A stretch of 64,000 bases of DNA from NCBI GenBank assembly GCA_017441925.1, contig JAFRUE010000008.1, forward strand, positions 1 to 64,000, written 5' to 3'. Of this stretch, positions 5,355-60,636 are shown piece by piece; positions within the stretch are counted from its first letter, which is position 1, and each line of letters begins with the position of its first letter. Origin of the DNA: Bacillota bacterium. GTDB taxonomy: Bacteria > Bacillota > Clostridia > Lachnospirales > Bianqueaceae. The translations under genes and the position numbers were made by a program. The notes beneath the pieces were generated by a model. It had not been told where the DNA came from. It searched no databases and saw only the letters and a program-made list of their open reading frames with translations.

Positions 5355-6305
5355 TTGAGCAACGGTACTGCAGTTCAGTCAAGCACAAAGAAAACAAAAG
5401 GACAGAAACTGCTTCAGGCCATCGGGAGAGATTGGCAGTTATACATCTTCATTCTTCCCGCAGTTGTCTTCTACATTGTTTTCCACTACCTGCCGCTGTA
5501 CGGTATCCAGATCGCCTTCAAGGACTATAAGGCTGTTCAGGGTATCACAGGCAGCGCGTGGGTCGGGTTAAAACATTTCAAGACATTCTTCAGTTCTTAT
5601 CTGGCCAAGCAGCTGATTGTCAACACTCTGGCAGTTAATATCTTCAACCTGCTGTGGGGATTCCCGCTTCCGGTCATCCTTTCACTGCTTCTTAACAGAC
5701 TGCCTTCAGAGAGATTCAAGAAGTTCAATCAGACCGTCATTTACATTCCTCACTTTGTTTCAACGGTTGTTCTTGCCGGTATGCTTTACATCTTCCTGGA
5801 TCCCAACAACGGTATTGTCAATAAGCTCATTGCCTTCCTGGGAGGCACGCCGCAGTACTTCATGGCTGAGAGCAAATGGTTCCGTACCGTATTCGTAGCT
5901 TCTTCCATCTGGCAGAATACAGGTTGGAATACCATTATTTACATCGCTGCCTTGACCGGTATCGATCAGGAGATGTATGAAGCAGCCAAGATCGACGGCG
6001 CTACGATCCTTCAGCAGATCTGGTACATCGATATGCCGAGTATCATTCCGATGGCGATGATGATGCTGATCCTTAACTCCGGACAGGTTATGGCGGGCAA
6101 CATGCAGAAGACGCTTCTTCTGCAGACGTCAGGCAACAAGGGTACATCCAATACGATCGGTATGTATGTTTACTCCATGGGTCTGACACAGGGCCAGTTC
6201 TCCTATACCGCGGCTATCGGACTTTTCCAGAATGTGGTCAGCTTCCTGATGGTTATCACGGTTAACACGATTTCGAACAAGCTGAGTTCGATCAGTATGT
6301 TCTAA
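5355..6305 (+). CDS. Sugar ABC transporter permease, LplB type
   Basis: A 316-residue inner-membrane permease of the CUT1 class (LplB/YtcP group), imported sugar not known. TTG 5355 is chosen as start because a strong AGGGGGGG ribosome site lies at 5341-5348; TTG 5352 is an alternative. Six hydrophobic segments are visible from about residue 25 onward. The coupling (EAA) loop reads EAAKIDGATILQQIW, which docks on the ATPase. It is followed by a second permease and a binding protein, with no ATPase gene in the cluster. CUT1 systems of this sort usually share an MsmK/UgpC-like ATPase encoded elsewhere. Confidence 0.9.
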   Translation: MSNGTAVQSSTKKTKGQKLLQAIGRDWQLYIFILPAVVFYIVFHYLPLYGIQIAFKDYKAVQGITGSAWVGLKHFKTFFSSYLAKQLIVNTLAVNIFNLLWGFPLPVILSLLLNRLPSERFKKFNQTVIYIPHFVSTVVLAGMLYIFLDPNNGIVNKLIAFLGGTPQYFMAESKWFRTVFVASSIWQNTGWNTIIYIAALTGIDQEMYEAAKIDGATILQQIWYIDMPSIIPMAMMMLILNSGQVMAGNMQKTLLLQTSGNKGTSNTIGMYVYSMGLTQGQFSYTAAIGLFQNVVSFLMVITVNTISNKLSSISMF

Positions 6306-6323
6306 GGGGAGGAGGACACTATC

Positions 6324-7259
6324 ATGGCAAAAGAAAAGACTGTCAGAATCCATAAAGAGAACAAAGTCCAGCTGACGATGGGCGATAAGATCTTTACCGT
6401 TATCAACCATATCATCTGGGTACTGGTTCTGTTCATCGTTCTGTATCCTCTGTACCTGATCATTATCTCTTCTGTTTCCGATCCGTATGCGGTTCTGAAC
6501 GGCGATGTCGTCATCGTCCCGATCGACTTCTCACTGATCGGTTATGAGAGAATCCTGCACTATACGACACTGTGGCGCGGCTACCTGATGTCCATCATCT
6601 ATACGGTAGCAGCTACGGTCCTCGGTATTTTCCTTACGATGCTGGCAGCTTACGCGCTGTCCAATAAGTTCCCGGGCAAAGGCATCTTCAACTTCATGAT
6701 CATCTTCACGATGTTCTTCAACGGCGGTCTGATCCCGACCTTCCTGGTCATGAAGGATATCGGCCTGTACAACAATCCGCTGATCATGATCCTGATGGGC
6801 GCGATGAGCGTTTGGAACACAATGATCGCGAGAACGTACATGCAGACTTCGATCCCGCGTGAACTGTATGAGGCGGCTGAGATCGACGGTTCGTCGCATT
6901 TCCAGTACTTCTTCAAGATCGTTATTCCGCTGTCCAGCACGATCATGGCGGTTCTGTCGGTTTACTACGCAGTCGGCAAGTGGAACGACTACTTCACCGC
7001 TCTGGTATATCTGAGAAACCAGGCGTTCTGGCCGATGCAGACCGTTCTGCAGAAGATTCTTGCCGCGCTGACAATGTCTGCCGGAGACGTTGCCGAGATG
7101 TTCCAGGATAACTACACAGACGTCGCTGAGACGCTGCGTGTTTCCAACGTCGTTAAGTACTGCGCGATTATCGTTTCCACGGTTCCCGTAACTGTCCTTT
7201 ACCTGCTGATGCAGCAGTACTTTGAGAAGGGCGTTATGATCGGATCCCTGAAGGGATAA
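6324..7259 (+). CDS. Sugar ABC transporter permease, LplC type
   Basis: A 311-residue CUT1 permease, the partner of the gene ending 18 bases upstream. A strong GGGGAGGAGG ribosome site precedes the ATG. Membrane helices run from about residue 30 to 300. The EAA loop is EAAEIDGSSHFQYFF, and the C-terminus has the usual GVMIGSLKG ending. It forms the heterodimeric channel with the LplB-type protein and receives substrate from the lipoprotein encoded next. Confidence 0.92.
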   Translation: MAKEKTVRIHKENKVQLTMGDKIFTVINHIIWVLVLFIVLYPLYLIIISSVSDPYAVLNGDVVIVPIDFSLIGYERILHYTTLWRGYLMSIIYTVAATVLGIFLTMLAAYALSNKFPGKGIFNFMIIFTMFFNGGLIPTFLVMKDIGLYNNPLIMILMGAMSVWNTMIARTYMQTSIPRELYEAAEIDGSSHFQYFFKIVIPLSSTIMAVLSVYYAVGKWNDYFTALVYLRNQAFWPMQTVLQKILAALTMSAGDVAEMFQDNYTDVAETLRVSNVVKYCAIIVSTVPVTVLYLLMQQYFEKGVMIGSLKG

Positions 7260-7343
7260 TCCGGTCCGGTCCATTATTCTGTATCGATCGCCGCAAGGCG
7301 TACCGATAAAATAGTATTTCATTACTGGAAAGGAGATCTAAGT

Positions 7344-9077
7344 ATGAAAAAGTTTGTTGCGATGCTGCTCGTTCTTGCGATGACTGCTTCTCTGCTCATC
7401 GGATGCACGGGCGGTGGAAACAACTCCAGCAAGCCCGCTGAGTCCAGCAAGGCCGCTGAGTCCAGCAAGGCCGCTGAAGAAAGCAAGGCTGCTGAGGAAA
7501 GCAAGGCTGCTGAGGAAAGCAAAGCTGAAGAGCCGACAACGGAAGTTGTTAAGACTCTGACGAACTGGGATGGCACTACCATGGATCTGCCGATCGTTTC
7601 TGACGGATCCGTATCCTTCACTCAGCTGCAGGGTATCCGTGACACGGATGCTTCGACTCTGAGCCCGGATTTCTGGTATTGCAAGAAGTCTGAGGAAGAC
7701 ACCGGTATTCATGTTGACTATACTCAGGTCAATATGTCTGACTGGAACAACCAGGTCAACCTGATGTTCGCTTCCGGAGAATATCTGGATACGATCAACA
7801 GAAGCTCTGGCGCTATCGACACCGAAATGTACGGTGTTGACCAGGGAATCCTGGTAGCTGTTGATGATCTGCTTCAGTACATGCCTGTTTACAAGGCTCG
7901 TCTGGATGCCGACACCGCTTCCTGGAAGTCTATCATCCGTTCCGACGGCAAGATGTATGGTATCGCCAAGATGTCTGATGATGGAACCCGTCTTAACAAC
8001 GCTTGGTTCATCAACAAGACCTGGCTTGACAACCTGAACATTGCTATGCCGGAGACCACCGATCAGCTGCTTGAAGCTCTGCGCGCTTTCATTAAGGAAG
8101 ACGCTAACGGCAACGGCGATGCTAATGATGAAGTTGGTTATGAGGCTGTCTTTGATGAGATGACCACCAACATCTTCAATGCTTGGGGAATTCCTGAGAA
8201 CAGCAAGCACATCGGACTTGATGACGATGGAAAGGTTGTTTTCCATCCGTTCAACGAGAACTATCGTGCAGCTGTTGAATGGCTTGCTACCCTGTATGCG
8301 GAAGGTCTGATGGATCAGGCTAACGTTACGCAGGATGGTAACTCCAAGATCGCTACCTACAACAAGACATGGGATGCTGAAGGAAAGCACAGCGTATGCG
8401 GCTTCGTTACCTGCCATCGTCTGAAATCCATGGGTTGGGATGTACTGCAGAACGACCTCGTATGGATGCCTGGTATCCATGCAGAAGGCCTGTCCTTCAA
8501 GAACCAGACCGGTATTGGCTCTGCTGGTGATGCTTTCTACTTCACCGTATCCAACGAAGTTCTGGAATATTCCGCTAAGTGGGTTGATTATCAGCTTTGC
8601 GACCAGTCCATGTATGAGACATACTACGGACCGGAAGGCAACATCTGGAACTGGAACGCAGATCACAAGTGCGAGCTTGGACCGGCCGGAGACCAGGGCG
8701 TTATGGAGTTCTCTCTTGGCGTTAACGGAATCTACTATCTGCCGGCTTGGTACTACAATGAGACATTCGTACAGCCTGACTACCGTGTAGAGCGTATTGA
8801 GTACAACCAGTACTATGCTGAGCACGGATATCAGGAGAAGAATCCTTATGGTATCCTGAATGGCGGAATCAGCCTGACTCCGGATGCTTCTGCTGAGATC
8901 GCTCAGATCTTTGCGAACATCGAGACCATCTACGATCAGAAGATCGCTGACATGATCATGCATGGTGTTACCGACGACGCTTGGACCAGCTTCGAGACTG
9001 AGCTGACCAATGCTGGCGTTGAGAGATACCTTGAGCTCTATCAGGGACCGGCTGACGATTATCTGGCTGGCAAATAA
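7344..9077 (+). CDS. Extracellular solute-binding lipoprotein of the LplA-type sugar transporter
   Basis: A 577-residue lipoprotein. The signal peptide ends in LLIGC with Cys21 as the lipidation site. Residues about 29-64 form a low-complexity linker made of six-residue repeats (SKAAEE/SKAAES), which would space the protein from the membrane. The rest is a type I sugar-binding fold with many aromatic residues. It lies 84 bases after the permease with ribosome site GGAAAGGAGAT and ends at a strong terminator (9117). Codon choice is visibly shifted to GCT, GAA/GAG and AAC compared with its neighbours, as expected for a highly expressed binding protein. Ligand unknown; neighbouring dehydratase and aldolase suggest a sugar acid or oligosaccharide. 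Confidence 0.92.
   Translation: MKKFVAMLLVLAMTASLLIGCTGGGNNSSKPAESSKAAESSKAAEESKAAEESKAAEESKAEEPTTEVVKTLTNWDGTTMDLPIVSDGSVSFTQLQGIRDTDASTLSPDFWYCKKSEEDTGIHVDYTQVNMSDWNNQVNLMFASGEYLDTINRSSGAIDTEMYGVDQGILVAVDDLLQYMPVYKARLDADTASWKSIIRSDGKMYGIAKMSDDGTRLNNAWFINKTWLDNLNIAMPETTDQLLEALRAFIKEDANGNGDANDEVGYEAVFDEMTTNIFNAWGIPENSKHIGLDDDGKVVFHPFNENYRAAVEWLATLYAEGLMDQANVTQDGNSKIATYNKTWDAEGKHSVCGFVTCHRLKSMGWDVLQNDLVWMPGIHAEGLSFKNQTGIGSAGDAFYFTVSNEVLEYSAKWVDYQLCDQSMYETYYGPEGNIWNWNADHKCELGPAGDQGVMEFSLGVNGIYYLPAWYYNETFVQPDYRVERIEYNQYYAEHGYQEKNPYGILNGGISLTPDASAEIAQIFANIETIYDQKIADMIMHGVTDDAWTSFETELTNAGVERYLELYQGPADDYLAGK
7428..7535 (+). repeat. 18-bp tandem repeat encoding the lipoprotein linker
   Basis: Six units of 18 bases starting AGCAAG at 7428, 7446, 7464, 7482, 7500 and 7518 (the last is degenerate). 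Each encodes a six-residue SKAAEE-like block. Whole-codon repeats like this can change copy number by slippage without loss of frame. Confidence 0.85.
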
Positions 9078-9116
9078 TCAGAGTTTGATCTGATCAATAC
9101 CTAACAGGTAAAACGA

Positions 9117-9148
9117 TTCCCCTCCGGACTATCCGGAGGGGAATTTTT
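9117..9148 (+). terminator. Terminator of the transporter operon
   Basis: Stem TTCCCCTCCGG / CCGGAGGGGAA (9117-9127 and 9133-9143) followed by TTTTT. Confidence 0.92.
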
Positions 9149-9172
9149 AGTGTTTATTCGATAATAACAGGT

Positions 9173-9213
9173 AAAAAAGACCGCTCTCCGGGTCACCCGG
9201 AGGGCGGTCTTTT
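9173..9213. terminator. Bidirectional terminator between convergent genes
   Basis: Long near-perfect hairpin, AAAGACCGC...TCTCCGGG / CCCGGAG...GGCGGTCTTT, with A tract before and T tract after. It serves the minus-strand lipoprotein gene at 9236 and backs up the plus-strand terminator at 9117. Confidence 0.88.
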
Positions 9214-9235
9214 GATGCGGTAGCAAACTGAAGCG

Positions 9236-9988
9236 TTACGGCGTAAACTCAACTTGTTCTACGACGATCTCGAATCCTTTGTTTGAGAAGAGTGCCTTAA
9301 CGTCATCTGCGGACGCGGATCCCGGAAGCTCAGCAAAAAGGGGAATTGCAGTAGCGGAAACCGTGGAATCATCACCCTGGAAGAATGTGATCAGAACAGG
9401 ATGCGCGTTTTCAAAGACATAGACGAAGATTGTGTTTTCGGTCAGATCATATGAAACAAAAGTCTTAGCGGCTGTACAAATACTTGCTGCCGCGATAGCG
9501 GCGGAACCGTATGCATTGTTGATCATTGAGGATACGGTCAGGATCATACGCCCCTGCATGTACTCTTTCAACGGATCGGAAAGGGACGCGCCTCCGCCGG
9601 AGGAAGCGATTGCCGCATCAAGATAAGCGGCGAGATTCGGAACAGTGACTTTATAAACAGCCTGCGGGGCCGAATAATCGCCTTCGGCGAGCTTGGCGAT
9701 CTCTTCGGAAACCGCCGGCGAGCTGCCCATGTAGACCGAGACATATACATTGTCTGTGACCATGTCCGAGATCAATTCGATCAGATCCATCCCATGCTCT
9801 GCAAGAGATTTGCTTGGAAGAGGCTGTGCTGGAGGTGGGACAGCACCAGGGGTAGTCGAGTCAGCGGGTACAATAGGAGCAGCGGACGAAGCATCAGCAG
9901 CGCCGCCGGAGCCGCTGCAGGCCGAGAGGAACATGGCCGCAGCAAGGATCAGGCACAGAAGGGCAGCAGTTATTTTTTTGCCGGTCAT
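9236..9988 (-). CDS. Lipoprotein of unknown function
   Basis: A 250-residue secreted lipoprotein. The signal peptide (1-23) ends in FLSAC with Cys24 as the lipidation site. A Ser/Ala/Pro-rich linker follows (about 25-60), then a soluble domain without motifs I recognise. The start follows a GAGGAGG ribosome site that overlaps the stop region of the upstream GH2 gene by spacing (12 bases apart), so it is the last gene of the minus-strand run. Function cannot be named; the alanine-rich helices and hydrophobic C-terminal part resemble DUF4358-type lipoproteins only loosely. Confidence 0.8.
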   Translation of the reverse strand: MTGKKITAALLCLILAAAMFLSACSGSGGAADASSAAPIVPADSTTPGAVPPPAQPLPSKSLAEHGMDLIELISDMVTDNVYVSVYMGSSPAVSEEIAKLAEGDYSAPQAVYKVTVPNLAAYLDAAIASSGGGASLSDPLKEYMQGRMILTVSSMINNAYGSAAIAAASICTAAKTFVSYDLTENTIFVYVFENAHPVLITFFQGDDSTVSATAIPLFAELPGSASADDVKALFSNKGFEIVVEQVEFTP

Positions 9989-10000
9989 TCAGGAGCCTCC

Positions 10001-11713
10001 TCACTTGGTCAGCTCATGATAGAGCTTTTTGACAGTGTAGTAGGCGAGTTTTGGACGACGGTATTCGTCCACGATACCCTTGTTGTTCATCTGACGGGGA
10101 CGCATCATCGCCCAGCTGCGGGTCACACGGACATCGCAGAACTGCCAGATGAAGATTCCGCTGACCGCGGGATTATTCAGGACGGCGGGGATCTGCTTCG
10201 ACAGGACTTCTGCCTGATTGTCTTCTGTCCATTTATCCATGTTCGGATTGCGGTATCCGTAGATGCCGCCGGCACCGATCTCCGTGATCAGGAAAGGCTT
10301 GCCGGCCCCGGGCGTTGTCTGTATCCAGTCGAGCAGCTTCTGCAGCTGCACCTCAGGGGATTCCATGCCTTGGAAATCATACCAGCCCGGATAGATGTTA
10401 AAGGATACGATGTCCGGCAGATCCAGGCAGATGTCATTGAAGTGCTTGCAGCTTGCAAACGACGTCGGACGGCTGTGATCCAGCGATTTGAGCAGCGCGA
10501 ACTGCTTCTCATAGCAGCCGCGGCCGTATTCGGTCTCGCTCGCACACTCGTTCAGCAAGCCCCAGATGATGATGGACGGATGATTGTAATCATCACGGAT
10601 CATCTCACGGATCACGTTCTCACACTGGTCTTCAAAATGCGGATTGCGCATCTTGTCCTCGCGGAAACCGCGCGCATGGTTCTCCTCCCAGACCATGATG
10701 CCTTTTTCATCACAGAGGTCCAGGAAAAGCGGGTCCTGCGGATAATGGGATGTGCGGACCGCGTTCGCGCCTGTATCCAGGAACAGGTTCAGGTCAGAGT
10801 CCATGATCTGCGGCGGGATCGCGCAGCCAAATGCCGGATGATATTCGTGGCGGTTGAATCCGCGGATCTGCAGCTCTTTGCCGTTGTAGAGGATCTTGCT
10901 GCCCTTGACCTCGATCGTGCGGAAGCCAACACGTTCTACACGGTCGTCATAGATAGAAGAATAAGACTCTGCATCCGCGTCTTCGGGGATCTCATCCGGA
11001 TCCGGATCACAGATATAGACCGCGACTTCATACAGCTTCGGATGGTCAGGAGAATAGGTCTCGGCACCAGCGGCAGCGACTTTCCTGCAGATCGTGACGG
11101 ACGCGCCGGCCGCAAGCTCCTGCGGCTCACTGATCCTTGTCGTTTCATCGAGGAAATCCGCCTCGGCTTCCAGATAGAATTCCTGAGGATCTTCCGATAC
11201 GTTGCGGATCACGGCCTCGATCTCAAGCGCCCAGGCGTCGTTCTCGCGGACCGGTGTCAGATGCAGGCTCTGCACGTACAGGCTGTCGAGCTCTTCCATA
11301 TAGCAGGCACGCGTGATGCCGCCAAAGGTGTAATAATCGTTCTCGGTGTGCAGTGCGGATTCTTCGTTGAATTCATTGGAAACATGCACGGACAGGCGGT
11401 GAATGCCCGGCTCAAGCCCTGTCGCGATGGCTTCGAACGCTGTGAAAGCGTTGTAATGGTGCGCCAGCAGCTGATCGTCCAGATAGACGTCGGCGGTATG
11501 GCTTACGCCTTCAAAGACAAATCTGGTCTCTTCTGTGCAGAGCACGTCGCGGGAATAGACAGCCTTGCCGCGATAGCTTTCGTAGCCGGGATAGGTCTCC
11601 CATGCGCTCGGAACATAGACCTGGATCGGTTCGCGGCCTTCCGCCTGGAAGGTCCACATACCGGAAAGTTCAGTCGGCTGATTTAAGGTATGGATAGGAA
11701 AACTTCTGAACAT
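10001..11713 (-). CDS. GH2 beta-glucuronidase (or beta-galacturonidase)
   Basis: A 570-residue glycoside hydrolase family 2 enzyme: jelly-roll sugar-binding domain (about 10-160), immunoglobulin-like domain (160-270) and TIM barrel (270-570). The acid/base is Glu389 in LLNECASE and the nucleophile Glu478 in LITEIGAGG. Asn543-x-Lys545 (MNNKGI) matches the N-x-K pair that in E. coli GusA contacts the substrate carboxylate, so a uronic acid substrate is likely. No signal peptide, so it acts in the cytoplasm on imported glucuronides. Length is near that of the compact bacterial GUS enzymes. It sits between a HAD phosphatase gene and a lipoprotein gene. Confidence 0.88.
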   Translation of the reverse strand: MFRSFPIHTLNQPTELSGMWTFQAEGREPIQVYVPSAWETYPGYESYRGKAVYSRDVLCTEETRFVFEGVSHTADVYLDDQLLAHHYNAFTAFEAIATGLEPGIHRLSVHVSNEFNEESALHTENDYYTFGGITRACYMEELDSLYVQSLHLTPVRENDAWALEIEAVIRNVSEDPQEFYLEAEADFLDETTRISEPQELAAGASVTICRKVAAAGAETYSPDHPKLYEVAVYICDPDPDEIPEDADAESYSSIYDDRVERVGFRTIEVKGSKILYNGKELQIRGFNRHEYHPAFGCAIPPQIMDSDLNLFLDTGANAVRTSHYPQDPLFLDLCDEKGIMVWEENHARGFREDKMRNPHFEDQCENVIREMIRDDYNHPSIIIWGLLNECASETEYGRGCYEKQFALLKSLDHSRPTSFASCKHFNDICLDLPDIVSFNIYPGWYDFQGMESPEVQLQKLLDWIQTTPGAGKPFLITEIGAGGIYGYRNPNMDKWTEDNQAEVLSKQIPAVLNNPAVSGIFIWQFCDVRVTRSWAMMRPRQMNNKGIVDEYRRPKLAYYTVKKLYHELTK

Positions 11714-51871: not shown

Positions 51872-52567
51872 ATGCTTAAGAAACTGAAAAAACAGGTTTA
51901 CGACGCGAATATGGCGCTGCCGCGCCACGGCCTTGTGCTCTTTACATGGGGCAATGTGAGCGGGATCGACCGGGAACGCGGTCTGGTCGTCATCAAGCCT
52001 TCGGGCGTCGATTACGATACGATGGAAGCCGACGATATGGTCGTCGTCGATATGGAAGGCAATGTGGTAGAGGGACATTATAAGCCATCGTCCGATACAG
52101 CGACGCATCTGGAGATGTATAAGGCTTTCCCGGAGGCAGGCGGTATCGTCCATACGCATTCCACCTGGGCTACGATCTACGCGCAGGCAGGACTGGAGAT
52201 CCCTGCGCTCGGTACAACACATGCGGATTATTTCTACGGACCGGTCCCCTGCACGCGCAGGATGACGCCGGAAGAGATCGCGGAGGATTACGAGAAGAAT
52301 ACCGGGATCGTGATCGCAGAGACCTTTGCAGGCAAGAATCCAAGCGATGTACCGGCAGTGCTGGTCAACAGCCACGGACCGTTCACCTGGGGCAAAGACG
52401 CGGACGAAGCGGTCTATCACGCCGTCGTGCTCGAGCAGGTCGCGAATATGGCCTACCATACCGCTGCGCTCGGCGCAGTCACAGCAGCCCAGCCCATGCA
52501 GCAGGAGCTTCTGGACAAGCATTTCCTCCGCAAACACGGTGCGAACGCATACTATGGACAGAAGTGA
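51872..52567 (+). CDS. araD: L-ribulose-5-phosphate 4-epimerase
   Basis: A 231-residue class II aldolase-family epimerase that links arabinose use to the pentose phosphate pathway. ATG 51872 follows GGAAGGA; the frame opens 30 bases upstream inside the kinase gene. Length equals E. coli AraD (231). Metal ligands are the histidines in VHTHSTWAT (His-x-His) and the later His in MAYHT; the block [16 protein letters not shown] is typical of AraD. Acts on the product of the kinase encoded upstream. Confidence 0.95.
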
Positions 52568-54419
52568 CGTGGTGAAAAAGAAAGCAGGCGGCAAGTCCGC
52601 CTTGACAAAATGGCTGCTCGGTCTGTGTATACTGGCGATGGCAGCCGGATTCTTCCGGACGGTCCCGGTGAAAGCAGCCGGTCAGGAGGTGTCGCTCACC
52701 TTAAGCTCCGGCGAAGTCCAGGTCGGCGACTGGGTAGAGGCAGAACTGGTCTTTACCAGCGACACAGAGCTCGCGGGCGTGTACGCGCACATCACCTACG
52801 ATCCGACAGTGTTGGAATATCTGGACGGCGACGCGGAAGGCGACACCGGATCCCTGACGATCAGCCGGATGGAGGAGAACGCCGAGCGGACGCTTTCCTA
52901 TACGCTGAATTTCAACGCGATCGGACAGGGCAATACCGAGATCAAGGTCACCGAGACCGGAATGTACAACGCCAACGCCGAGAATATCGGTTCGCCGACG
53001 GCCTCGGCAGCACTTACGGTCACATCCGCAGAGCAGCTTTCGTCCAATTCGGCGCTGCAGAATCTGATGCCGTCTTACGGGACGCTCAGACCTGCTTTTG
53101 CAGCGGATATCTATGACTATTCGCTCGAAGTGCCGAACGAGATCGATTCCGTCGTGCTGACAGCGGTCGCTTCGGACCCGACGGCGGGCGTTGAGGTCGG
53201 CGGCGTAGGCAGTCTGGCGGTCGGAGAGAACCTCCGGCCAGTCACGGTCATCGCGCAGGACGGATCGACTTCCGTCTACACAGTGCATGTGTTCCGGGCA
53301 GAGTCTGAGGAATCTGTCGAGGAAGAGTCTTCCAGGGAAGAATCAGGCGAGGAAGAATCGCATGAGACGGCTTTCTTCAAGGTTTCCGGCATGACGCTGT
53401 ATCTGCAGTCCGCGCCGGAGGACGCGGTTCCTCCGAAGGGCTTTGATCTGATGACGATCACGTATGCGGACGAGAATTATCTCGGAGCCATCGCGCAGGA
53501 AAGCGGTGACATCCTGCTGTACCTGACGGATTTCCGCGGGGAGAACGGTGCTTTCTACTATTATGACTCGGAGTGGAACTCCTGCCGCAAGGCTGCATAT
53601 GTCGAGCAGAACGGCAAGCTTTATATCCTGCTGAATGCGGAGGAGGGCGACACGGTCCCCGAGAGCGCGCATATCGAGACGGTCGAGATCGGCGGATATC
53701 CGGTGGAGGTCTATATTCCGGACGGAAGCACGGCGGCAGATGCGACAGAATACATCGTTTACAGCAAACATGATGAGAAGCTCTACTCCTACAGTACCGC
53801 CACCAGACGGCTCTCGGATTATGTACCGCCGGCAGCCGATGAACCGGAAGAATCTTCCGCACCTGCAGAGGAGAGTGCTGCGGAGGAAAGCCGTGCGGAT
53901 GAAAATACATCTGCTCCGGAGCCGGCTGAAAGCAGGCCGGACGATCCGAAGCAGGGACAGAGTTCAGGGGGGATTTTTGGAGTGCTCAGCAGATTTTCAG
54001 GGTTTGTACGTTATATCCCGTATTTGATGATCCTGCTTGCCGTTATCGCGCTGATCCTGCTGCTTATGATCATTATTCTTGCGGTATCCACACGCAAGCG
54101 CGGCAGGAAGGCATCCAGATCCGGTAAGGGGACAGTATCGCAGGAGACTCGCAGGCTGCAGTCCGGCGGCGCGGATACAGCGGCTGCGGCAAACAGACAG
54201 AATACTGCTGTAAGCGCGCAGGCGCCGGAGGATCCCGAGGATATTCCGCTTGATCCGGGCGCTTTTGAATCCTGGAGAGAGACCACCGGCCGGATTCCGG
54301 TCAGCAAGATGACGGAGGTCCATACTACGCGGTTCGAGACGATCACCAAGATCCTGCCGGATACCAGTGAAGCGGATGCAGGCAAGACCGGCAAAGACGG
54401 GAAGAGGCGCAGAAAGTGA
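52554..54419 (+). CDS. Surface protein with cohesin-like and cadherin-like domains and a membrane anchor
   Basis: A 621-residue protein. It starts at ATG 52554 (overlapping araD by 14 bases) or GTG 52569/52572; no ribosome site decides. Signal sequence at about 10-38. A cohesin-like domain follows (about 43-160; [32 protein letters not shown]), then a cadherin-like beta-sandwich (about 163-250; [18 protein letters not shown]), acidic linkers, a second beta domain (about 270-400), a Ser/Glu/Ala linker, one membrane helix (about 482-506) and a basic cytoplasmic tail. No dockerin is present in the window. The rhomboid-like gene overlaps its stop (GTGA). Confidence 0.8.
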
Positions 54420-55315
54420 AACTCCTGGACCGTCTGAACCGTAAATTCGGGAGATTCGCGATCTCCAACCTGATGCTCTACATCGTCATCGGGAAGGCGG
54501 CGGTCTATATCGCCGGATTCTTCAATATGTCGATCTCGAGCTATCTGATGCTGGATCCGGTCCTGGTCAAGCAGGGACAGGTCTGGAGGCTGCTGACCTT
54601 CCTGATCGTACCGAATTACGTCTCGTTTACTGATATCTTCTGGCTCGCGATCAGCCTGTATTTTAACTATTTCATAGGAAGGATGCTGGAACGGGAGTGG
54701 GGCGCGTTCCGGTTCAATATTTATTATCTGATCGGCGTGATCTGCACGATCGCTTTCTCCATGATCTTCAATGTGCCGGGCAGCACGTTCTTCCTGGATG
54801 AATCGCTGTTCCTGGGATTCGCGACGCTCTATCCGAACGTGCAGGTGCTGCTGTTCTTCTTCCTGCCGATCAAGGTCAAATGGATGGGATTTGTCGTGGG
54901 GGGTCTGCTGCTTTTCCAGTTCCTCTCGGGAGGCTGGGCGACAAAACTGATGATCTTCGCCGGACTGCTCAACTATATCCTCTTCTTTGCACCGGATCTG
55001 ATCGCAAGGATCCGTAGCGGGATCAGGAGGGAGCGTTTTGAAGATCTCTCCCGGCCGGGTGGCAGGTCCGGAATGTATAAAAAGACCGGCGATAACGGCA
55101 AAATCATTACGGACGTTACGTTCCACCGTTGTGTGGTCTGCGGCCGTACGGAAAAAGACGCACCTGACATGCAGTTCCGTTACTGCGCACAGTGCGACGG
55201 CAACAAAGAATACTGCATGGATCATCTGTACAATCACGTGCATTACAGAGATCCTTCACTGCATCCTGAGGATGCACAGCCTGGAGCCGGCTGGACCCCG
55301 CCTCAGGGGAAATAA
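54416..55315 (+). CDS. Rhomboid-like membrane protein without catalytic motif, with zinc-ribbon tail
   Basis: A 299-residue protein starting at GTG 54416 inside the stop of the cohesin-like gene. Six hydrophobic helices span about 18-200, with rhomboid-like marks such as QVWRLLTFLIVPNY and EREWGAFRFNIYYLIG. The serine motif GxSG and the paired histidine of active rhomboids are absent, so it is probably a pseudoprotease. The C-terminal cytoplasmic part has CVVCGR, YCAQC and EYC, a zinc-ribbon-like set. Coupling suggests it works with the surface protein upstream. Family by pattern; role unknown. Confidence 0.8.
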   Translation: MKLLDRLNRKFGRFAISNLMLYIVIGKAAVYIAGFFNMSISSYLMLDPVLVKQGQVWRLLTFLIVPNYVSFTDIFWLAISLYFNYFIGRMLEREWGAFRFNIYYLIGVICTIAFSMIFNVPGSTFFLDESLFLGFATLYPNVQVLLFFFLPIKVKWMGFVVGGLLLFQFLSGGWATKLMIFAGLLNYILFFAPDLIARIRSGIRRERFEDLSRPGGRSGMYKKTGDNGKIITDVTFHRCVVCGRTEKDAPDMQFRYCAQCDGNKEYCMDHLYNHVHYRDPSLHPEDAQPGAGWTPPQGK

Positions 55316-55394: not shown

Positions 55395-55955
55395 TTATTT
55401 TTCAAAATGTCTTTTCACGATGGCTTCGGCAGGCTTGCCGTATACCTCGTAATTCATCTCTTCTTCGATCTTATCGGGCGGATAGAGTTTGTGGCTCCAT
55501 GACCAGAAGACTTCACCGCCGACCCAGCTGCGTTTATCACAGGCGGAGAGCATATCTTCATACCAGTCGGCCTGTCCCTTAAGGTCTGAACCGGTCCGCA
55601 TGCTCCAGTCATTGGGGACAGTATTGGAGCCTACTGTGGACATACAGCCGGTCTCCGCAAAGAAGAAAGGCTTATCATAAGCCTTTACGACTTTTTCAAT
55701 ACGGTCGAGTTCCTGCTCCCATTTACCGATAGGGTAATAGCCGCTTGAGCAGATTACATCGACACAGTCCCACCAGTGGACGTTATGTTCCTGGTATTTG
55801 TCACAGTTGTAAGTCACGATTCCGGAATAAACCCTGCGTATATCCGAGATCAGCTGCCGCCATTCCTGTTCCCGGTGGTCCGCCATGACCATTTCACATC
55901 CGGCAGAGACAAAAGGCGCGAAAGAGAAGCCTTTTACAGGTTCGAAAGATTTCAT
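55395..55955 (-). pseudogene. Internally deleted GH113-type glycoside hydrolase
   Basis: A 186-residue frame. It begins MKSFEPVKGFSFAPF, which resembles the start of GH113 barrels (KGFTFG), then jumps directly to VSAGCEMVMADHREQEWRQL, which belongs past the middle of the barrel. About 120 or more residues are missing, in frame. The second half is intact and includes the acid/base Glu in GCEM, the strand SSGYYPI, and the predicted nucleophile in FFFAETGC. A normal enzyme has about 320 residues, so half the barrel is gone and activity is unlikely. The ribosome site is AGAGG. Confidence 0.72.
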
Positions 55956-55982
55956 GATGCGTGACCTCTGTAATGTTTTCTC

Positions 55983-56020
55983 AAAAGAGGGAGGCATCTC
56001 CGGACGGAGAGCCTCCCTCA
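55983..56020 (-). terminator. Terminator of the purine permease gene
   Basis: On the minus strand GAGGGAGGC...CTCCG / GGAG...GCCTCCCTC hairpin followed by TTTT. Confidence 0.85.
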
Positions 56021-56062
56021 AAACTGTGCTTGTTTAGTCTGACTTAGTTTAGCCCGACGGGC

Positions 56063-57486: not shown

Positions 57487-57514
57487 AGTATACCATTTCT
57501 TCATAATTTGTCAA
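57487..57514 (-). promoter_or_regulatory. Promoter of the purine permease gene
   Basis: On the minus strand: -35 TTGACA (57509-57514), 16-bp spacer, -10 TATACT (57487-57492). Confidence 0.75.
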
Positions 57515-57530
57515 TGCTGAAATTCATAAA

Positions 57531-58982
57531 TTATTCATATTTCATAGAAAGAGTAATGACCGCGCTGCCTGTCTTTTCCTTCAGAAAGAGCAGCTGGTCA
57601 GCGTGTCCTGTCGGATCCGTCAGCTCCCAGGTCAGGGTGACAGTGACCCGGCCGAAAACATTCTGCGTCTGTCCCTTCCCGTCCCGTATCAGTGCGGGGA
57701 TATTCGCCTTGAGGCCATTGATAAACGCGTTGACCCTGGCATAGCTGACGTAGCCGCCATTCCAGAGCGATGCTTTCTGAGACAGTACATACGCAAGGAT
57801 TGCGTAACGGCCGTCGGCCGGCAGCACATAGACGGCGGGATCATGAAGATCCCAGTTCATGGTGACAGCCTGCAGGGTATCGTTCTCTACTTCGTAAGAT
57901 TCCGTGTATCCGGAATGGACCGGAACGACATCGATGACAACAACGTTTTCTATATCGCTGCCGTATTGCGGGTTTTTATAGTAGGCAACGTTTTCATGAT
58001 ACTGCTGTACCGTAAGCGGCCAGCGGTTCGGCGGATATTTGGCATATTCTGCGGCACAGAAACGGCCAAGCCCGATCAGCAGTACGCTGAGGATAGCGGC
58101 AGCAGCCCATATCCTGCCGCGGGGCAGGAATTCGATCTCGTTATGATCGTCCCATTCCAAGCTCTCGCCGTTTTCATATTGCCGGTAGCTTTTGATAAGA
58201 CGCCAGATCCGGACGATCGGCAGGTCCAGACCGCGTCCGTACAACAAGCGCTTCCAGTTCCGCTGATACGCCTCCTGGAAAGTCAGAAAACGGCCTGTAT
58301 CATGGATTATGCGTTCTCCGAGCATCCATTTGCCGAAGGTAAAACCGGTCCGGGACAGAAGAAAGGATTCCGCGAGAAAATACAGTGCCAGATAGAACAG
58401 GATTCCCAGCAGATAAAAGAGCGGAGAAGGCCGGTCGACATACCGCACACCGAATACGACAAATATCAGGAACATACAGATAAGGATATAGAGATGGCCG
58501 TCTAGAAAAGCGGCAAAATACCGGCGGAACGGATGCGGCGGATCATAGACTACATCCCTCGCCCGTATGGTCCTGTCGGAATATGTCTCGCGGGAAGGCT
58601 TCTTGTGCGGCTCGGCCGGTCTGTCCATCATCTGCAGATAACGCGCGGCATCCAGTGCGGAATACGTCGCATGTTCTGTCTGGATGGTTCGGCAGATATT
58701 CTCCTGCGCCTGCAGATCTTCCTGCTCGGCGGCAATGGCCTGCATCCGGCTGTCCACGATAAACTGCAGCGAGACCGTGTCCTCCTGCAGCTGACGGATC
58801 TGTTCAACCGAAATCTTAAGACGGCGCAGCAGGCGGATCTTCAGCAAGGTCCGGACGTCTTCGTCGGAATAATCCCTGTAGCCGTTGGCCCGGCGGACGG
58901 GCGAGAGCAGGCCTTCTTTTTCATAGTAGCGGATATTGGGACGTTCAAGTCCTGTTTTGATTTCGACTTCGCGGATATCCAT
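57531..58982 (-). CDS. MerR-type regulator fused to an RDD membrane domain
   Basis: A 483-residue protein. ATG 58982 follows GGAGG by six bases. Residues 1-70 are a MerR DNA-binding domain (IREVEIKTGLERPNIRYY, GLLSP), then a coiled linker (about 70-110). Residues about 150-290 form an RDD membrane domain: PFRRYFAAFLD carries the Arg/Asp pair and GFTFGKWMLGERI the RDD glycine motif, with helices at about 163-180 and 186-206. A last helix (291-309) leads to an extracytoplasmic domain of about 170 residues. So DNA-binding, membrane and outer sensor parts are in one chain. Autoregulation by the operator at 59017-59047 is likely. Confidence 0.85.
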   Translation of the reverse strand: MDIREVEIKTGLERPNIRYYEKEGLLSPVRRANGYRDYSDEDVRTLLKIRLLRRLKISVEQIRQLQEDTVSLQFIVDSRMQAIAAEQEDLQAQENICRTIQTEHATYSALDAARYLQMMDRPAEPHKKPSRETYSDRTIRARDVVYDPPHPFRRYFAAFLDGHLYILICMFLIFVVFGVRYVDRPSPLFYLLGILFYLALYFLAESFLLSRTGFTFGKWMLGERIIHDTGRFLTFQEAYQRNWKRLLYGRGLDLPIVRIWRLIKSYRQYENGESLEWDDHNEIEFLPRGRIWAAAAILSVLLIGLGRFCAAEYAKYPPNRWPLTVQQYHENVAYYKNPQYGSDIENVVVIDVVPVHSGYTESYEVENDTLQAVTMNWDLHDPAVYVLPADGRYAILAYVLSQKASLWNGGYVSYARVNAFINGLKANIPALIRDGKGQTQNVFGRVTVTLTWELTDPTGHADQLLFLKEKTGSAVITLSMKYE

Positions 58983-59016
58983 TGAGATCCTCCTTTCTGA
59001 CCCTCGGTCTGATTGT

Positions 59017-59047
59017 ACTGTACAGTATAAAGCGGCTTTACAGTCAA
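59017..59047 (-). promoter_or_regulatory. MerR-type promoter/operator of the MerR-RDD gene
   Basis: On the minus strand: -35 TTGACT (59042-59047), a 19-bp spacer and -10 TACAGT (59017-59022). The long spacer contains the palindrome TAAAGCCGCTTTA (59028-59040), the layout that MerR proteins untwist to activate. A second palindrome TACTGTACAGTA (59016-59027) covers the -10. Confidence 0.75.
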
Positions 59048-59232: not shown

Positions 59233-60636
59233 ATGCAGATTTCAAAGCTCATGGAGAGACAGAACAAGCCTACCGGAAGATCCGGCCTGAACGGCGGCAA
59301 TATGCTTTTCAGCCCGGCGGACCTGCGCAGGCTGATCATACCGCTGCTGATCGAGCAAACGCTTGCGATCCTGGTCGGCATGCTCGACACGATGATGGTG
59401 TCTTCGGTCGGAGAGGCTGCGATTTCCGGTGTTTCGATCATCAATGAGATCAACGCGCTGATGATCAATCTTCTTGCCGCGCTCGCGACAGGCGGAGCGG
59501 TTATCGTGTCCCAGTATCTTGGTGCGGGCAACAGAGACCATGCCAATCTGTCTGCTTCACAGCTGATCATGACCGCGACGGGCGCGTCCATGATCCTGAT
59601 GATTATCTGCGAGATCGCCAACCGTCAGATCATTCAGATGATCTACGGCTCGATCGACGAAGAAGTCATGAAAGCGTCCGTGATCTATTTCCGGATCACG
59701 GCCATATCTTTCCCGTTCCTTGCGGCGTATAACAGCTGCGCGGCTCTCTACCGGTCAATGCGCAAAACGAGCGTTACGATGTGGGTCTCCATGCTGATGA
59801 ATATCATCAATCTGGCAGGCAACTATATCGGTATCCATGTGCTGAAGCTCGGTGTCGCGGGCGTTGCCTGGCCGACATTGATCTCACGCGCGGTCGCCGC
59901 GATCATCATGATGAATCTGGCGTTTAACAAGAAGAATCCGGTCTATCTGAACTGGAAAGGTATCTTCAGCTGGAACGGCGGGATCATCAAAGAAGTGCTT
60001 GGGATCGCAGTTCCGAACGGCATTGAGAACGGCCTGTTCCAGCTTGGCCGCGTCATGGTCGCTTCGATCATCACAACATACGGAACGACGCAGATCGCCG
60101 CGAACGGTGTCGGAAACAACGCCGGCTCGATCGGAATGGTCTTCTGTTTCGCGATCAATATGGGGACGGTGACGGTCATCGGACAGTGCATCGGCGCGAA
60201 CGAATACGATCAGGCCCGATATTATATGAGGAAACTGATCTTGATGAATACGGCCTTTACCGCGCTCGCAAATGCGGTGATCTGGATATTTACGCCGCAG
60301 CTTGTCGGAATGTACAAGATCACGGAGGAAGGCGCAGAGATCGCGCGGACCATGATCCTCTGGCACTGCATTGCTACGCCGCTCCTGCATCCGATGGCCT
60401 TCACGCTGCCTAACGGTCTGCGTGCGGCCGGCGATGCCAAATATACGATGATCGTCGGCGTCCTGTCGATGTTTATCGCGAGGATCGGCGGCTCGTATGT
60501 GCTGGGGACACTTCTCGGCTTGAAAGTCCTCGGAACCTATCTTGCGATGTTCCTCGACTGGGTCGTGCGCATCGTCTTCTTCTATACTCGTTACAAGTCG
60601 AACAAATGGACAAAATACCGTGTCGTAAAGGATTGA
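59233..60636 (+). CDS. MATE-family efflux transporter
   Basis: A 467-residue transporter with twelve predicted membrane segments in two related halves, beginning after a 30-residue cytoplasmic tail. Typical stretches are MLDTMMVSSVGEAAISGVSI in helix 1-2 and GVAWPTLISRAVAAIIM. MATE proteins expel cationic drugs or metabolites using Na+ or H+. It is divergent from the MerR-RDD gene, whose protein could control it, since MerR members often regulate a neighbouring efflux gene; no shared operator is seen in its own promoter. Ribosome site AGAGAGG. Confidence 0.93.
   Translation: MQISKLMERQNKPTGRSGLNGGNMLFSPADLRRLIIPLLIEQTLAILVGMLDTMMVSSVGEAAISGVSIINEINALMINLLAALATGGAVIVSQYLGAGNRDHANLSASQLIMTATGASMILMIICEIANRQIIQMIYGSIDEEVMKASVIYFRITAISFPFLAAYNSCAALYRSMRKTSVTMWVSMLMNIINLAGNYIGIHVLKLGVAGVAWPTLISRAVAAIIMMNLAFNKKNPVYLNWKGIFSWNGGIIKEVLGIAVPNGIENGLFQLGRVMVASIITTYGTTQIAANGVGNNAGSIGMVFCFAINMGTVTVIGQCIGANEYDQARYYMRKLILMNTAFTALANAVIWIFTPQLVGMYKITEEGAEIARTMILWHCIATPLLHPMAFTLPNGLRAAGDAKYTMIVGVLSMFIARIGGSYVLGTLLGLKVLGTYLAMFLDWVVRIVFFYTRYKSNKWTKYRVVKD

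Follow-up and report, generated by a model that had tools for sequence, protein, structure and literature searches.

A MerR-type DNA-binding domain joined to a variant RDD membrane domain in one chain: a putative self-regulated membrane protein of clostridia

Introduction

Transmembrane transcription regulators (TTRs) are a known class, treated in the main text of the survey PMC10269533. In ToxR, CadC and TcpP, a DNA-binding domain, a membrane segment and an outer domain follow one another in one chain, and the best-known members are single-pass proteins with an OmpR-type winged helix-turn-helix (wHTH) which act on other genes. How a protein fixed in the membrane finds its DNA site is an open question for such regulators. 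SoxR, CueR, MtaN and BmrR of the MerR family are soluble proteins, each with a small cytoplasmic ligand. MerR proteins activate transcription by distorting DNA. The promoters activated have spacers of 19-20 bp (PMC8113463, PMC1526738).

Two further systems are of relevance. RDD proteins (PF06271) are poorly understood membrane proteins; the domain has been proposed to contain a binding site that lies within the membrane and faces the cytoplasm (PMC12419801), and the Halobacillus RDD protein has been reported to be a Na+(Li+,K+)/H+ antiporter, in which R124, R129, D154 and D158 are essential and R35 and D42 are not (PMC5996927). In B. subtilis, SdpI is a membrane receptor-immunity protein and SdpR an autorepressor (PMC1626106); SdpI is receptor and effector at once, the repressor is sequestered at the membrane, and the switch controls its own operon.

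Here we describe a gene in which a MerR and an RDD domain are joined. It is located in a stretch of 64,000 nucleotides (the window; positions 1 to 64,000 of contig JAFRUE010000008.1, assembly GCA_017441925.1) from a gut bacterium of the Bacillota (order Lachnospirales).

Results

The features of the locus are collected in Table 1. MerR and RDD are encoded by one open, unbroken frame, and a single chain of 483 residues, as originally predicted, rather than two polypeptides was found. A frame of 536 residues in the list of open reading frames only adds in-frame codons upstream of this gene, starting at a TTG. The chain runs from the MerR domain through the RDD domain and a last membrane helix to a C-terminal domain of about 170 residues, and a full-chain AlphaFold2 model built on 25 relatives has a mean pLDDT of 81.6.

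Table 1. Sequence features in and around the merR-RDD gene (window coordinates; residues are those of the encoded protein).
Feature	Position	Strand	Details
Putative autoregulatory MerR promoter/operator	59017..59047	-	TTGACT, 19 bp, TACAGT; dyad TGTAAAG-CCG-CTTTATA at 59026-59042
Shine-Dalgarno sequence AAGGAGG	58989..58995	-	Strong; precedes ATG at 58982
merR-RDD gene	57531..58982	-	483 aa; ATG 58982; stop 57531-57533; single copy in genome
MerR winged helix-turn-helix, residues 1-67	58782..58982	-	Pfam MerR_1 E 5.6e-17; structure matches Z ~12-13
MerR-type dimerisation helix, residues 72-102	58677..58769	-	31-residue helix in model; aligned with MtaN, SoxR
Variant RDD domain, residues 149-288	58119..58538	-	Pfam RDD E 3.2e-13 (149-247) and conservation
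Membrane helix 1, residues 151-176	58455..58532	-	AlphaFold2 model; holds R154 and D161
Membrane helix 2, residues 187-212	58347..58424	-	AlphaFold2 model
Membrane helix 3, residues 290-313	58044..58115	-	AlphaFold2 model
C-terminal domain, residues 314-483	57534..58043	-	Alpha/beta fold; predicted outside
Sigma-70-like promoter	57487..57514	-	TTGACA, 16 bp, TATACT, 11 of 12; precedes downstream NCS2 purine/uracil permease gene

The MerR head scores 62.1 bits with PF13411 (MerR_1; curated cut-off 21.6), and its modelled structure resembles those of GlnR, TnrA, SoxR, CadR and MtaN. The helix that follows the HTH fits, as predicted in the model, the long antiparallel dimerisation helix of the MerR family. 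Between the MerR part and the membrane lies a linker which is flexible in the model (residues 124-146) and, over residues 122-147, of low confidence and poorly conserved. Such a linker would suit proteolytic activation, in which a membrane protease frees the MerR domain to act as a soluble regulator, but its length and sequence differ among relatives and no protease is a conserved neighbour in the neighbourhoods compared, and we consider this highly unlikely.

The RDD assignment was upheld by the profile search, with 50.6 bits against a curated cut-off of 24.1 for PF06271, a cut-off also passed by the relatives scanned. R154 and D161 are invariant in 25 of 25 aligned relatives, and residue 278, beside the invariant W277, is acidic in all 25 (D or E; D in the window protein), so that the one arginine and two aspartates highly conserved in PF06271 are represented by R154, D161 and [D/E]278. 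Residues 235-275, the stretch which in an ordinary RDD domain holds the third hydrophobic helix, are instead amphipathic and charged in the window protein (maximal Kyte-Doolittle value over 17 residues, 0.66) and amphipathic in most relatives too. Three hydrophobic segments are accordingly not found within the domain, and a separate third helix follows it. For this reason, and since the Pfam match covers model positions 2-104 of 137, the domain is classed as a variant, non-canonical RDD. Of the RDD segments predicted at about residues 150-290, Pfam matches those within 149-247, and the third in-domain helix has been replaced. A structural match of residues 145-289 to a chain of the peroxisomal retro-translocon (Z 8.0) was dismissed as a common helical arrangement.

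By analogy with the functions proposed for other RDD proteins, either an intramembrane binding site or cation/proton antiport could be the effector or the sensing function of this domain. If transport were the function, the MerR part might sense a cytoplasmic cue, or nothing, and set the dose of the fused RDD transporter, while the outer domain would be no sensor. The strict retention of the RDD signature residues while the outer domain drifts, as well as the occurrence of RDD-ectodomain proteins without MerR (see below), are in line with this. However, the two best-kept residues are the counterparts of the Halobacillus R35 and D42 and not of the four residues essential there, and the non-hydrophobic third RDD helix makes transport less likely, which leaves such dose-setting decidedly unlikely.

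The predicted last membrane helix and the roughly 170 residues beyond it were likewise recovered. The presence of three membrane helices, together with a middle loop rich in Arg/Lys in most relatives, places the C-terminus of the protein probably outside the cell. Folded alone by AlphaFold2, the C-terminal domain reaches a pLDDT of 85.7 and a pTM of 0.83. Its sequence shows strong divergence, with a mean pairwise identity of about 24%; it matches no Pfam family in the window protein and has no sequence relative in the PDB (best E 1). Fold comparison gave no confident match (the best, VIA, at Z 4.4 and rmsd 4.0 over 100 aligned residues), nor did Foldseek give a confident relative (best E 0.015), from which novelty of the fold does not follow. 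Given the strong divergence and the lack of a known relative, a sensor role of this domain is a guess.

The search for the MerR-RDD architecture retrieved the same layout in about 20 relatives from several families, and it is therefore neither a chance event nor an assembly artefact. Eight relatives matching across both MerR and RDD were retrieved from GTDB contigs (Lachnospiraceae, Clostridiaceae, Christensenella and others), and at E<=1e-25 relatives were found in 20 of the 392 genomes of the window's order, distributed over six families. Among 398 genomes sampled from the phylum no other match was found at 1e-40, and a plasmid search returned only RDD proteins without MerR coverage. The one other RDD protein of the home genome, a frame of 259 residues on a different contig, also lacks MerR.

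Several relatives have a degenerate MerR part or none. In a subgroup (genus g78) the RDD domain and ectodomain are kept while the HTH is degenerate (MerR_1 only 19.7 bits in L143), and RDD-ectodomain proteins without MerR occur in six more genomes, in three of which Pfam confirms the RDD domain. When a maximum-likelihood tree was built from the shared part, the MerR-less proteins fell among the MerR-bearing ones in at least two places, which makes repeated loss of MerR likely, in an unrooted tree that cannot separate gain from loss. This distribution suggests that RDD and ectodomain can function without MerR, and as they also occur without it, they are probably the working part of the protein. 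In one genus the MerR-RDD gene is split over two frames in one species (L137, 5180-6677, genome G051) and present without MerR in another (L190, genome G038), as if the fusion were decaying. At L193 (3294-3836, minus strand) the RDD domain is missing, and a possible MerR remnant passes straight into a membrane helix and the start of the outer domain.

The putative promoter upstream of the gene reads TTGACT-GTAAAGCCGCTTTATACTG-TACAGT, with a dyad of the form TGTAAAG-N3-CTTTA(C/T)A inside the spacer, which by its sequence is the classic form of a MerR-activated promoter. The promoter proposed earlier at this position appears to be a MerR-type operator conserved across relatives, with the consensus TTGACTGT[A/G]AA-N5-TTNA-N5-TANNNT in which TTGACTGT is invariant. 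It precedes 20 of the 22 orthologs whose HTH is recognisable and is missing from the broken gene of L137 and from L138, which has a drifting HTH. Of these 20 operators, 19 have a spacer of 19 bp and one, that of L134, has 18 bp. None of the 11 relatives in which MerR is degenerate or missing is preceded by it, and the best match there does not exceed that in shuffled sequence. The association of operator and recognisable HTH has a Fisher p of 4e-7, uncorrected for relatedness among the proteins.

Exactly one operator site is present in the home genome, both with up to one and with up to three mismatches, a threshold at which more degenerate sites could be missed. Among the 392 genomes of the order 21 exact sites were found, 20 of them directly upstream of a MerR HTH gene: 11 MerR-RDD genes, seven genes for other membrane-anchored MerR proteins and two truncated MerR genes. 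All intact MerR genes behind exact sites encode membrane-anchored proteins (with RDD, DUF1648 or other modules), and the remaining site (L157) is probably due to chance. Two mismatches, allowed in 12 related genomes, yielded two further sites before MerR genes (L201, L207); some of the sites were inspected, and among these no other credible target was seen, the rest of those inspected being chance-like. The sole recognisable target in the home genome thus appears to be the gene's own promoter and not a wide regulon. A link between a MerR-type wHTH and the membrane or cell pole is known from RocS and RacA (PMC11500499), and the protein could in principle be such a chromosome-membrane tether rather than a promoter regulator; with one site per genome, placed in promoter geometry within the 19-bp spacer, and no repeated sites, the chance of this is almost negligible.

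Other membrane-anchored MerR proteins carry the operator too. Three MerR-DUF1648 proteins (L158, L045, L054) have it upstream of their own genes. Locus L057 contains three tandem membrane-anchored MerR genes (5971-10655) and a further operator copy 54 bp before a gene for an exported S-layer-homology protein, which may be a second target for regulators of this class. In addition, the long chain encoded at L060 (6001-7881), where an operator of the merR-RDD type was not found, combines a MerR HTH with an FtsX-like permease domain, and L201 (genome G370) encodes a similar-looking MerR chain of 438 residues with membrane helices.

A gene for a MATE exporter starts divergently at 59233, and MATE exporter genes adjoin merR-RDD in the window and in two relatives. 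Downstream, the strong promoter-like site in front of the NCS2 permease gene suggests that this gene can be transcribed independently. In four close relatives (L126, L127, L128, L129) the gene lies between recD2 and comF, with its own operator present, and in three of the four metK and mreB are found upstream of this arrangement. In other relatives the gene lies beside unrelated genes; no conserved operon partner was found, and as the neighbours differ in this way, none is apparent as a target. Rfam gave no match near the gene. Elsewhere in the window, a glycoside hydrolase gene (GH113; 55395-56021, minus strand, 208 residues) covers only profile positions 131-289 of 289 with a plausible N-terminus, and seems to have lost the first half by an internal deletion. 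A membrane-anchored surface protein (52557-54416, plus strand) has a Cadherin-like domain and a weak match to cohesin, below the cut-off, and is followed by a rhomboid-like membrane protein (54416-55315).

These data also bear on whether the protein is a TTR in the classical sense, behaving like ToxR or CadC by sensing an outside ligand and controlling a regulon of several genes that includes its own promoter. The membrane topology with a predicted outer domain, the operator before the S-layer-homology gene in the cousin locus L057 and the adjoining MATE exporter genes would all agree with this. However, the home genome holds a single operator even at three mismatches, the extra sites inspected in the 12 related genomes are chance-like or lie before other MerR genes, and the neighbouring genes are not conserved, and a regulon of this kind is therefore unlikely.

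Discussion

The proposal of a one-component membrane regulator is supported insofar as the sequence describes a single-chain, membrane-embedded MerR protein, and a membrane-embedded MerR regulator is what it appears to be. The reading we favour, at a probability of about 0.6, is that of a self-contained regulator of this type acting on its own promoter, with the RDD-ectodomain as the likely effector. As the sole recognisable target is its own promoter and the RDD-ectodomain exists also without MerR, the protein resembles a membrane effector or sensor that regulates itself more than a receptor serving a regulon of other genes.

In such a scheme the three-helix variant-RDD anchor, with the C-terminal domain, in the topology proposed here, outside, would keep a MerR dimer at the inner membrane face, where the dimer would occupy its own gene's promoter with the 19-bp spacer. 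An envelope signal, for which a lipid-linked or membrane-active compound would be a candidate, might engage the RDD site or, if sensing occurs on the outside, the outer domain; the coiled coil would then shift and the MerR part distort the over-long spacer, turning its own gene on (we infer activation rather than repression). The output would be more of the same membrane protein, and the RDD-ectodomain is for this reason the most likely effector, perhaps protective, transporting or lipid-binding, to which MerR would be a built-in thermostat.

More tentatively, and with somewhat less than an even chance of being correct, the locus may represent a clostridial class that combines one MerR head and a conserved operator (TTGACTGTAAA-N5-TTTA, 19-bp spacer) with many different membrane modules, among them RDD-ectodomain and DUF1648. 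Each such protein would control nothing but its own synthesis and serve as an inducible device for membrane protection or envelope maintenance. The operator signature finds the whole class in unannotated genomes. With the sole recognisable site beside the encoding gene, the problem of how a membrane-bound regulator finds its site becomes simple and testable, as a membrane protein made from a transcribed and translated gene would enter the membrane close to its own operator. The architecture would also extend MerR proteins to transmembrane signalling and give the RDD domain a regulatory setting.

Phrase searches of the literature revealed no publication that deals with a combination of MerR and RDD or with a membrane-bound MerR protein, and no MerR or RDD family is named in the main text of the TTR survey (PMC10269533), whose supplementary tables may list MerR-type members. 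With the MerR family the window protein shares the winged HTH, the dimer helix and the 19-bp-spacer promoter with its dyad, while it differs from the soluble members in being membrane-embedded. With the RDD family, including the Halobacillus protein and VanZ-RDD fusions, it shares the arginine at the start and the aspartate in the middle of helix 1, the GK motif and a later acidic residue, and differs in the amphipathic charged stretch in place of the third helix, in the separate helix and outer domain that follow, and in the fusion to MerR. The other membrane-anchored MerR proteins (DUF1648, FtsX or unnamed helices) have a closely similar HTH, several of them with the same operator before their own gene, and carry different membrane modules where the window protein has RDD.

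SdpR/SdpI resembles the present case in that an autoregulator is coupled to a membrane protein, and the sole operator, at the gene's own promoter, points likewise to a regulator of its own membrane-protein gene. The Sdp system, however, consists of two polypeptides with a repressor, whereas here one chain and an activator-type MerR promoter are found, and Pfam detects MerR and RDD only, not an SdpI-type module, in the window protein. The parallel is therefore a functional one only, as if the two Sdp proteins had been fused into one chain. It would be stronger if DUF1648, which we take to be an SdpI-type domain, is one indeed, since MerR-DUF1648 fusions have the same operator; a term search found no paper linking DUF1648 and SdpI. 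Compared with the TTRs, finally, the window protein likewise combines a DNA-binding domain, a transmembrane region and a presumed outer domain in one chain, but it is of MerR type, three-pass and RDD-based, with its own promoter as sole recognisable target. The MerR-RDD chain, of which no published account was found, would extend this known class.
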